Positions 2,512 to 5,818 of a stretch of 44,796 bases of DNA are shown piece after piece. The DNA is taken from NCBI GenBank assembly GCA_015492515.1, contig WGEZ01000074.1, positions 1-44,796 of the forward strand. Direction: 5' to 3'. Source of the DNA: Nitrospirota bacterium (GTDB lineage: Bacteria > Nitrospirota > Thermodesulfovibrionia > Thermodesulfovibrionales > JdFR-85). The position numbers were made by a program, and so were the translations under genes. Under the pieces are notes generated by a model, which searched no databases, was not told where the DNA came from, and saw only the letters and a program-made list of their open reading frames with translations. Position 1 is the stretch's first letter, and every line of letters begins with the position of its first letter.

Positions 2512-2540
2512 TTGACTGTTGTCTCACCATCTGGTAAACT
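2512..2540 (+). promoter_or_regulatory. Sigma70-type promoter for the amidase/MamK-like/SPOR operon
   Basis: TTGACT (2512-2517), a 17-bp spacer, then TAAACT (2535-2540). Transcription would begin near 2547, about 20 bases ahead of the GTG start at 2567. Confidence 0.7.
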
Positions 2541-2566: not shown

Positions 2567-3634
2567 GTGACTTTTGCAAGACCGTGCAGAAGGGAAGCGA
2601 GGCTGCGGAAGGCGATCCTGAGGGGCATCTACGAGGAAAACCTGAGGATGGCCGGAGGTCGCCGCAGCGAGAAGGGGATCGGAAAGGCCCTCCTGCTCAG
2701 GAAGATCGCGCTCGCCCTCTTCGTCGCCCTTGCCGCCGTATTCGGCAGTTCCAGCCTCCTCGACCTCTCCGTGGTCCAGGAAGACCACATAAACCTCGCC
2801 GGCTCCTTGGTCAACACCCTGACGGACGGCGCAGAGACCACGGATGCTGACGGTGGCATCAACCCCTCCTACTACTCCGCCTTCCTCAGGGACGACGGTA
2901 CGCCCCTGTCCGAGCTCTTCGGTCTCAAGGTGAGGACGATCATCATCGACCCCGGCCACGGGGGCGAGGACCCGGGAGCGGTCGGAAGGCTGGGGACGAA
3001 GGAGAAGGACATAACCCTGGCGATCGCACGGATGCTCAAGGAGAGGCTCTCCAGGTACGACAACTACCAGATCCTCCTGACCAGGGACGACGACAGGACC
3101 CTCTCCCTGAACAGGAGGACCGAGATCGCCAACTCCCTCAAGGCAGACCTCTTCATCTCGATCCATGTGAACTACCTGCCCAACAAGCCGATAAACATCA
3201 TCGAGACCTACTACTTCGGGGCCCATTCCGACGACGCGACACTCAGGCTCGCTGAACAGGAGAACAAGGGCTCCCAGTTCAGCCTCGGCGACTTCAAGGA
3301 GATGATCCGGAAGATCGGCAACACGATGAAGCTGCAGGAGTCGAAGATGCTCGCCCTCTCGATCCAGGAGAGCCTCTTCAGGAACATGGAGGAGCTCCAC
3401 GGCAATGTATTCGACTACGGAATAAAGACCGCTCCCTTCGTGGTCCTCCTCGGGGTGGATGTGCCGAGCGTGTTGACGGAGGTATCGTGCCTGAGCAACC
3501 CGGAGGAGGAGAAGAAGCTGGCCACCGTTGAGTACAGGAGGGAGATCGCCCGCTTCCTCGAGGAGGGGATAGTGGCCTACCTGAATAAACAAAAAGGAGT
3601 AACGGGATATGAAACAGCAAGGCTTCAGCACTGA
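2567..3634 (+). CDS. N-acetylmuramoyl-L-alanine amidase (Amidase_3), membrane-anchored
   Basis: Zinc amidase that cuts the bond between N-acetylmuramic acid and the stem peptide, leaving denuded glycan strands; AmiA/B/C-type enzymes act in daughter-cell separation. The Amidase_3 ligands are all present: His131 in DPGHGG, Glu146 in the KEKD segment, His200 in SIHVN and catalytic Glu305 in LTEVS. An N-terminal hydrophobic stretch (about residues 43-62 from the GTG) is a signal anchor, so the catalytic domain lies in the periplasm. The GTG at 2567 sits behind GGCAGG at a workable distance; an ATG at 2648 giving a 328-aa product is the alternative. There is no AMIN or LysM/SPOR targeting domain in this protein. 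The SPOR domain sits two genes downstream, and the stop codon overlaps the start of the actin gene by 26 bp, so the three products are probably co-translated and may work together. Confidence 0.92.
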   Translation: MTFARPCRREARLRKAILRGIYEENLRMAGGRRSEKGIGKALLLRKIALALFVALAAVFGSSSLLDLSVVQEDHINLAGSLVNTLTDGAETTDADGGINPSYYSAFLRDDGTPLSELFGLKVRTIIIDPGHGGEDPGAVGRLGTKEKDITLAIARMLKERLSRYDNYQILLTRDDDRTLSLNRRTEIANSLKADLFISIHVNYLPNKPINIIETYYFGAHSDDATLRLAEQENKGSQFSLGDFKEMIRKIGNTMKLQESKMLALSIQESLFRNMEELHGNVFDYGIKTAPFVVLLGVDVPSVLTEVSCLSNPEEEKKLATVEYRREIARFLEEGIVAYLNKQKGVTGYETARLQH

Positions 3635-4646
3635 CGCCGACGTCCTCTTCGTCGGCATCGACCTCGGGACATCGAGAAGCGCCATCTCGACGAGCAGGGG
3701 GCGGAAGGAGTGGATCGAGAGCTATGTGGGCTGGCCGAAGGACTTCATCGCCCGCAAGGTGCTCGGCAGGCCCGTCCTGTTCGGTGAGGAGGCGCTGAAC
3801 AACAGGCTCTCCCTCGACATCTACAGGCCCCTGGAGAAGGGTGTGATAAAGGAGGGGACCGCGAGGGATGAAGAATCGGTCAGGGAGCTCATCCGTCACC
3901 TCATCGAACTCGCTGCACCTGGTGAGGCACAGAAGATCTACGCCGTGGTAGGCGTGCCGGCGGAGTCGATGAAGATAAACAAGCTCGCCATAAAGAGGGC
4001 GGTATCGGACTACGTGCATTCCCTCATGGTCGTCTCCGAGCCTTTCGCCGTCGCCTACGGGATGGACCTGCTCAACAACGCGCTCGTCATCGATATAGGT
4101 GCAGGCACGGTGGACTTCTGCATAATGCACGGCACCATCCCCACCGAGGACGACCAGAAGACCATCTTCACCGCCGGAGACTACATCGACCAGCAGCTGT
4201 ACGGGTTCCTGGTCGAGAAGCACCCCGAATCGAACCTCAACCTGAACATGGTCAGGAGGTTCAAGGAGAAGTACAGCTTTGTCGGTGACGGGGGCGGCCC
4301 GGTAAGGGTGGAGATACCCGTGGGTGCCAGGCCGGTGGAGCATGACATAACGGAGGATATGAGGCGCGCCTGTGAGGGGATAGTACCGGCCATAGTGGAG
4401 ACCTCCACGGAGATGGTGGCCAAGGTGGACCCTGAATTCCAGGCAGGGATAAGGGAGAACGTGGTCCTCGCCGGAGGGGGCAGCCAGATAAGGGGGATCT
4501 GCGGATACCTCGAGAAGGCATTGAGTGAGTACGGACCTTACAGGGTGCGGGCAGTCGATGATCCGCTCTTCGCCGGGGCGGACGGGGCCCTTGCACTTGC
4601 AAAGGATATGCCGAGGGAATACTGGGAGGAGATGGAAGGGAAATAG
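3609..4646 (+). CDS. MamK-like bacterial actin
   Basis: Filament-forming actin/Hsp70-superfamily ATPase of 345 aa. The phosphate-1 loop is GIDLGTS (residues 16-22), phosphate-2 is DIGAGT (162-167) and the adenosine loop is AGGGS (288-292). Several stretches match what I remember of MamK, the magnetosome-chain actin, better than FtsA, MreB or ParM: TSRGRK, VGWPKD, LGRPVLFGEEA near the N-terminus, VVSEPFAVAYG in the middle and the C-terminal MPREYWEE. No FtsA 1C domain or C-terminal amphipathic helix is evident. AAGGAG at 3594-3599 supports the ATG. It sits between a cell-wall amidase and a membrane SPOR protein. None of the other magnetosome genes (mamA, B, E, I, M, P, Q) is in the window. Likely cytoplasmic and involved in positioning something at the division site or pole; that role is inferred. 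Confidence 0.85.
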   Translation: MKQQGFSTDADVLFVGIDLGTSRSAISTSRGRKEWIESYVGWPKDFIARKVLGRPVLFGEEALNNRLSLDIYRPLEKGVIKEGTARDEESVRELIRHLIELAAPGEAQKIYAVVGVPAESMKINKLAIKRAVSDYVHSLMVVSEPFAVAYGMDLLNNALVIDIGAGTVDFCIMHGTIPTEDDQKTIFTAGDYIDQQLYGFLVEKHPESNLNLNMVRRFKEKYSFVGDGGGPVRVEIPVGARPVEHDITEDMRRACEGIVPAIVETSTEMVAKVDPEFQAGIRENVVLAGGGSQIRGICGYLEKALSEYGPYRVRAVDDPLFAGADGALALAKDMPREYWEEMEGK

Positions 4647-4651
4647 CCCCC

Positions 4652-5818
4652 ATGCGGAACAAGAACATCCTCGTCATCGACGAAGATACGGAGACCCTGA
4701 GGCTCGTAAGCGAGGTCCTCGAGCACGAGGGTCTCGCCGTATTCGTGGTCACCGATTCCGAGAACACCTTACCGATGATCGAGAAGATAGAGCCCGCGCT
4801 GATACTCGTTGAGACGAACCTCTCCGGCATGAGCGGCCTCCGCCTCTGCCAGGATATACACCGTGTGGAGGGGTTCCGAAACATCCCGATCATCCTCCTC
4901 ACCCGGGAGGAGAGGAGATACGACCCGGGATACGCCGCTGACTACGGGGTAGTGGGCTTTATCAGGAAACCAATCGTCGCCGAAGAGCTCCTCTCGAAGG
5001 TGAGGGACGTCCTCACCACCGAGGAGTCGGTGATGGTCGACTTCTCGAGGTTCGAGGATGTCCTCCTCTCAAAGGTGAACGAGATCTTCAGGGAGAGACC
5101 GCCTGAGAGGCCCGGAGGCACCGCTGAAGAGCCGCACGAGGCCGCCGTCACGGAGGATGCACCCGCCGACGACAGCGGGGGAGACGTCGTCGCTGAGGGT
5201 GCACCGGTGGACGCCGCGGTCTCAGGCGCTGAAAGCGCGGAGACGGGGGGCGAAGGGGAGAGGCCCCGTCCGCCGAGGAGGAGGTACAGAAAGAGGAGGA
5301 AGACGAGCCCCCTCCTTGCAGCCCTCGGAGGCGGGGTCCTGCTGCTGCTCATCGTCTCTGCAATCTATCTGAAGACCGGTAAGGAAGGCCCCACCGCTCC
5401 TGATGAGACCGCGGTAATGAAGACGGAGCAGAGCGTTCAGGCCGGGGAGACCCTGGAGCGGGGCGATACAGAGGTGTCGACCATCCAGCCCCAGGAGGAG
5501 GAGACCCTGGAGGAGACGGAGTCTTCCGTCGAAGAGGTCGCGGAGGATGCTCCGCCGCCGGAGGAGCCGGTCACGCCTGAACCGCCTCTCCTCTCCATTC
5601 AGGTGGGGGCGTTCAGGAACCCGGCGAATGCAGAGACCATGAAGCAGAGGCTCGAGTCGAAGGGGTACAGGGCCGGCGTCTATCCCTCCGGGGGGGCAGA
5701 GGAAGGGGTGATCTACAGGGTCCTGATCGGGAGGTTCGACACCAGGGAAGAGGCCCTCAGGAGGCTCAGGGAGATCAAGGAGGCCGAGGGGATCGAGGCG
5801 GTCCTCTTCAGGAGATAG
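4652..5818 (+). CDS. Receiver domain - transmembrane - SPOR domain protein
   Basis: A 388-aa fusion. Residues 4-120 are a CheY-like receiver with acidic pocket Asp10/Glu11/Asp12, Thr84 and Lys106-Pro107, but the phospho-accepting Asp is Glu54 (codon GAG), a known phosphomimetic replacement. Residues about 150-205 are acidic and Ala/Pro/Gly-rich, followed by an Arg/Lys-rich stretch just before the single membrane helix at 219-240. A second acidic, Thr/Glu/Pro-rich linker leads to a SPOR domain at about 313-388 (SIQVGAF to the C-terminus). The positive-inside rule puts the receiver in the cytoplasm and SPOR in the periplasm. SPOR domains bind glycan strands stripped of peptides, exactly what the amidase two genes upstream produces. 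The gene starts 6 bp after the actin gene. The receiver could be a constitutively active docking module for the actin. Confidence 0.88.
   Translation: MRNKNILVIDEDTETLRLVSEVLEHEGLAVFVVTDSENTLPMIEKIEPALILVETNLSGMSGLRLCQDIHRVEGFRNIPIILLTREERRYDPGYAADYGVVGFIRKPIVAEELLSKVRDVLTTEESVMVDFSRFEDVLLSKVNEIFRERPPERPGGTAEEPHEAAVTEDAPADDSGGDVVAEGAPVDAAVSGAESAETGGEGERPRPPRRRYRKRRKTSPLLAALGGGVLLLLIVSAIYLKTGKEGPTAPDETAVMKTEQSVQAGETLERGDTEVSTIQPQEEETLEETESSVEEVAEDAPPPEEPVTPEPPLLSIQVGAFRNPANAETMKQRLESKGYRAGVYPSGGAEEGVIYRVLIGRFDTREEALRRLREIKEAEGIEAVLFRR

Follow-up and report, generated by a model that had tools for sequence, protein, structure and literature searches.

A MamK-family actin gene paired with a gene for a membrane-anchored peptidoglycan amidase in several bacterial phyla

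The window, that is the whole stretch of 44,796 nucleotides analysed here (contig WGEZ01000074.1), comes from a 2.19-Mb genome of the Nitrospirota, class Thermodesulfovibrionia. It carries three consecutive genes on one strand, which encode an amidase, an actin and a protein with a receiver and a SPOR domain:

2512..2540, + strand: sigma-70-like promoter match TTGACT-17-TAAACT, a match to the consensus only
2567..3634, + strand: gene for a membrane-anchored Amidase_3 protein of the AmiA/AmiC type (355 aa, GTG start; from open reading frame and Pfam)
2597..2659, + strand: conserved cytosolic N-terminal tail of the amidase, proposed actin contact (residues 11-31, core AILRGIYEENLRM)
2699..2764, + strand: transmembrane signal-anchor segment of the amidase (hydrophobic segment in 77/77)
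2933..3589, + strand: Amidase_3 catalytic domain with zinc/catalytic residues H131, E146, H200 and E305
3609..4646, + strand: gene for a MamK-family actin of the amidase-linked clade (345 aa; from NCBIfam, structure match and tree)
4652..5818, + strand: pseudoreceiver-TM-SPOR gene (388 aa), a Nitrospirota-specific accessory
4652..5005, + strand: receiver domain, with Glu54 at the phospho-acceptor position
5309..5386, + strand: transmembrane helix of the third protein (predicted structure, hydrophobicity)
5594..5806, + strand: SPOR domain, periplasmic by topology (Pfam, predicted structure)

The coordinates of the reading frames confirm the layout given in a preliminary description of this DNA: the amidase and actin frames overlap by 26 bp, and a gap of 5 bp separates the actin from the receiver-SPOR frame. 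That description also named one strong promoter. A sigma-70-like match is present, with a TG preceding its second hexamer, and the region holds 2 such sites against 0.6 expected; the strength is not borne out, since the match is to the consensus only. The GTG start at 2567 gains support from a motif conserved across phyla (residues 14-28), which precedes the next in-frame ATG, at codon 28. An Rfam scan of the window returned two tRNAs and nothing more.

The amidase matches Pfam Amidase_3 with E=3.6e-45. In an alignment of 77 loci plus the window, also aligned to AmiC, its residues H131, E146, H200 and E305 are at least 98% conserved, so that all zinc and catalytic residues are present and the initial assignment to the Amidase_3 type stands. 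The catalytic domain matches the structures of AmiC (4bin, E=2e-43) and AmiA (8c2o, TM-score 0.81 on the target); it aligns along the full AmiC catalytic length of 219 residues, the part that corresponds to the regulatory insert, which blocks the active site in enzymes of this type, being modelled with lower confidence. The predicted structure places a tail helix at residues 7-28 and a transmembrane helix at residues 38-64 ahead of this AmiA/AmiC-like domain. Across the same alignment the mean net charge is +4.1 before the transmembrane segment and -0.7 after it, as expected for an N-in anchor. The N-terminal transmembrane segment could in principle be subject to cleavage.

The actin scores 430.3 bits against the NCBIfam MamK model (NF040964; curated cut-off 400), and among solved structures Magnetospirillum MamK is the closest (5jyg, E=1.5e-94), so it is not a distant FtsA/Hsp70-like protein. 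Residues E144 and D162, invariant in the actin alignment, correspond to the MamK active-site residues E143 and D161. The role of D161 in the ATPase active site has been described (PMC5059902). The protein is thus MamK-like and retains ATPase residues, as had been proposed. A separate MreB-like gene lies elsewhere in the host genome, in an mre-like locus whose neighbours, read by eye, resemble MreC, MreD, PBP2 and RodA; together with the NF040964 score and the 5jyg match it rules out an MreB- or FtsA/Hsp70-like identity for the actin.

In a maximum-likelihood tree the amidase-linked actins group together with full support (100/100), separately from the actins of magnetosome genomes and from AMB-1 MamK; the tree is rooted at the midpoint only and has a long outgroup branch, so it does not fix the branching order. 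A MamK-family match is present in 40 of the 121 genomes of the order. In 25 of these 40 the actin is the window protein or is 63-71% identical to it. The actins of the other 15 are 47-50% identical, and these 15 genomes coincide exactly with the set that has MamB/M-like transporters at E<1e-100, to which no clade genome (0 of 25) belongs. The actin of these 15 genomes lies inside a magnetosome cluster in most loci read, one genome (G057) being arranged otherwise. The host genome has no MamB/M-like CDF transporter at E<=1e-30 and no magnetosome cluster, and its actin neighbours the amidase and SPOR genes. A magnetosome remnant is ruled out by the separate clade, by these neighbours and by the lack of overlap with the MamB/M genomes.

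Several other MamK-family genes came to light. The 6.0-Mb genome G057 holds two of them (L114, L115), neither in a gene order of the magnetosome type; one has several genes for response regulators and kinases as neighbours, and the MamB/M-like genes are on another contig. A further Desulfobacterota clade of MamK-like proteins (L185, L186, L187, L188; 332-334 aa, about 47-49% identical) is not accompanied by an amidase, and in L185 the gene adjoins genes for proteins of 117 and 663 aa with no convincing Pfam match. Diverged MamK-family genes also occur as tandem pairs in Desulfobacterota (L182, L183, L184, L195).

The conserved core of the locus is the amidase-actin pair. In an independent collection the gene immediately upstream of the actin encodes an Amidase_3 protein in 80/80 loci of the clade, mostly in overlapping frames; as clade membership was set by sequence and the broad scan searched with two peptide patterns from the clade, more divergent members with other partners may exist. 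The labels of these loci span at least five phyla and include Nitrospirota, Desulfobacterota (with Desulfobulbaceae), Pseudomonadota, Acidobacteriota/Aminicenantes and Rokubacteria, with further records labelled Gammaproteobacteria and Defluviicoccus. The hosts are mostly uncultured metagenome-assembled genomes (MAGs), for which single labels may be wrong; the breadth is not in doubt. Among cultured bacteria, Desulfosarcina cetonica and strain NaphS2 have both genes. Within the order, each of the 25 clade genomes has the Amidase_3 gene directly upstream, and the extra amidase paralog has exactly the distribution of the actin: both are in the same 25 of 121 genomes, with no genome holding one alone. 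Because all 121 genomes carry other Amidase_3 genes, the actin-linked copy appears to be dedicated. The actin is single-copy in 26 genomes. Chance adjacency is ruled out by the 80/80 loci and the 25/25 genomes.

Across the alignment (77 loci and the window protein) the actin-linked amidases begin with a common tail of about 45 residues; it carries the motif I-L-R/K-G-V-Y-E-E/D-N-L and is highly conserved at residues 14-28. Residue N25 is invariant (77/77), and I17 (71/77), L18 (75/77) and Y22 (66/77) are strongly conserved. Mean information is 2.50 bits over tail residues 11-31, against 1.40 in the transmembrane segment and 1.41 in the linker. Written as a regular expression, the motif matches 78 of the 80 loci and 1 of 945 other open reading frames; the two loci that it misses are a truncated contig and a broken Defluviicoccus gene (L105:4568-6002), whose amidase frame is split into three pieces and in which a form of the motif is still readable. 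A profile of the tail gave no significant match in the test genomes besides the actin-linked amidase, and in 341 Desulfobacterota genomes it gave two matches only, both in genomes with the actin. The housekeeping amidase copy in L181 differs from the actin-linked copy at its N-terminus. Conservation does not fall significantly on one helical face (permutation p=0.41), which leaves a simple binding surface on the tail unsupported. Judged from this conservation, the cytosolic tail is the best candidate for contact with the actin filament, which it likely binds; it might instead aid membrane insertion or bind another partner.

The third protein matches Pfam Response_reg (2.7e-19) and SPOR (1.3e-16; 61.1 bits against a cut-off of 21), and the SPOR domain is modelled with pLDDT mostly near or above 90. 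Its predicted topology, with the receiver inside, a membrane helix and the SPOR domain in the periplasm, agrees with the one first proposed. The phospho-acceptor aspartate is missing in 25 of 26 receivers: Asp is kept in one, Asn stands in 14 and the window protein has Glu. The receiver therefore probably serves for interaction and not as a phospho-switch.

We consider it on balance probable that the locus encodes a dedicated actin-amidase pair in which the filament places the amidase through its cytosolic tail. A cytoplasmic filament of the MamK-like actin would bind the short conserved tail of the membrane-anchored amidase and thereby concentrate or position the periplasmic amidase domain, which would cut stem peptides from peptidoglycan where the filament lies, be it the septum, the new pole or some other place in the envelope. 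Most Thermodesulfovibrionia add the pseudoreceiver-TM-SPOR protein, whose SPOR domain would bind the denuded glycan produced by the amidase and so stabilise or report the site. The evidence for the pair's function is comparative throughout: from what is observed, namely the order and co-occurrence of the genes, the actin clade, the domains present, the conserved motif and the pattern of topology, we infer filament formation, tail-actin binding, the site of action and SPOR feedback.

The actin might alternatively serve another cargo or cell shape, with the amidase merely co-regulated and its tail bound to some other cytosolic factor, for example a divisome protein. MamK positions magnetosomes, and the related actin Bbp (big bacteria protein), a MamK-like actin of giant bacteria that mostly lack magnetosomes, has been connected with large cell size; its reported gene cluster also encodes a hypothetical and a Kelch protein, with no amidase mentioned (PMC10580974). 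We nevertheless regard this alternative as unlikely, given that the two genes co-occur strictly one to one and overlap across phyla, and that the tail motif is absent from sampled genomes without the actin.

The preliminary description gave the coupling role to the receiver-TM-SPOR protein: the receiver would contact the actin, and the SPOR domain would bind what the amidase produces. This protein has the right topology, and its gene adjoins the pair in 24 of 32 Nitrospirota loci and, within the order, in 18 of the roughly 24 actin genomes that could be evaluated; three more Nitrospirota loci have the receiver only, two of them cut off by contig ends. However, it is found in none of the 48 loci outside Nitrospirota (7 of which have too little downstream DNA to judge), its homologues are poorly conserved (24-33% identical to the window protein) and also occur in genomes without the actin, several beside ribD- or cysS-like genes, and the host genome has other SPOR proteins. 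Neighbourhood across phyla thus extends to the amidase and actin genes and stops short of the third, which, with its acceptor aspartate lost in 25 of 26 receivers, fails as a universal coupler; we find the receiver-based version distinctly improbable. Rather, the third protein is an accessory limited to Nitrospirota that, by analogy, could bind the amidase product. The broader idea of actin-to-wall coupling remains plausible, with the amidase tail, on its sequence conservation, as the likely coupler.

Related proteins appear in other contexts. Pseudoreceiver-TM-SPOR genes occur in genomes without the actin at L210, L211, L214, L216 and L217, four of which adjoin ribD- or cysS-like genes, and a second pseudoreceiver-SPOR type lies upstream of an mpl-like murein ligase gene (L220, L221). 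In family f6 (L126:8033-8788, genome G005) a receiver-PilZ protein replaces receiver-TM-SPOR as the third gene after the actin, hinting at c-di-GMP input.

Local wall hydrolysis is a known way through the wall for trans-envelope machines, and the pair could open the wall for an actin-positioned one (secretion, pili, flagella); this is very improbable, as the present data do not point to such a machine and no third gene is kept beside the pair over the 80 loci except the receiver-SPOR gene, and none outside Nitrospirota.

A close MamK relative, always encoded with its own membrane-spanning amidase in bacteria of several phyla that form no magnetosomes, suggests an undescribed device in which an actin filament inside the cell directs the place of wall cutting. 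If this reading is right, the pair would link an actin filament directly to a peptidoglycan amidase and give MamK-type actins a role outside magnetosomes, with a testable origin for MamK. More tentatively, and short of what we would call probable, this would be a cytoskeletal system of a new type, its actin filament directly holding a cell-wall hydrolase by the cytosolic tail of that hydrolase. Descent and transfer would have carried the system into several phyla, and it would be the sister of the magnetosome MamK branch, which may itself derive from wall-linked actins. The clade members scored pass the NCBIfam cut-off, and therefore a 'MamK' annotation in MAGs need not mean magnetotaxis; a model that scores non-magnetosome actins above its cut-off may yield false magnetotaxis predictions there.

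A literature search, with most subscription journals and bioRxiv outside its scope, found no relevant paper on MamK and an amidase together; the initial statement that no system with this gene set had been described thus holds for the literature searched. The parts belong to known families, and their combination would be a new variant of actin-to-envelope coupling. Magnetosome MamK (PDB 5jyg, 5ljv) belongs to the same actin subfamily and has active-site residues in common with the amidase-linked actin, which differs in forming a separate clade, in lying outside magnetosome clusters and in having a fixed amidase partner. The amidases AmiA and AmiC of E. coli have a like catalytic domain and are exported and released, whereas the protein described here seems to stay anchored in the membrane, N-terminus inside, and has a conserved tail in the cytosol. 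E. coli couples actin and amidase by way of adaptors, FtsEX-EnvC among them; a demonstrated tail-actin contact would be a new kind of connection. In MreB-RodZ an actin filament is coupled to the wall machinery via a single-pass membrane protein; that system couples wall synthesis, not an amidase, and the host has its separate mre-like locus. A precedent is the FtsA-FtsN circuit, in which the cytosolic domain of FtsN binds the actin homologue FtsA and its SPOR domain binds denuded glycan (PMC9426451). Both arrangements have an actin homologue inside, a membrane protein with a cytosolic tail and periplasmic binding of denuded glycan, but in the present locus it is the amidase that carries the tail, and the SPOR domain is on a separate, lineage-limited protein. 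In Sinorhizobium meliloti (RgsS/AmiC) the amidase product positions a SPOR membrane protein (PMC7822825), with no actin in that model. The nearest published report is that of Bbp, which its published description sets apart from the amidase-linked actin by its different gene neighbours.
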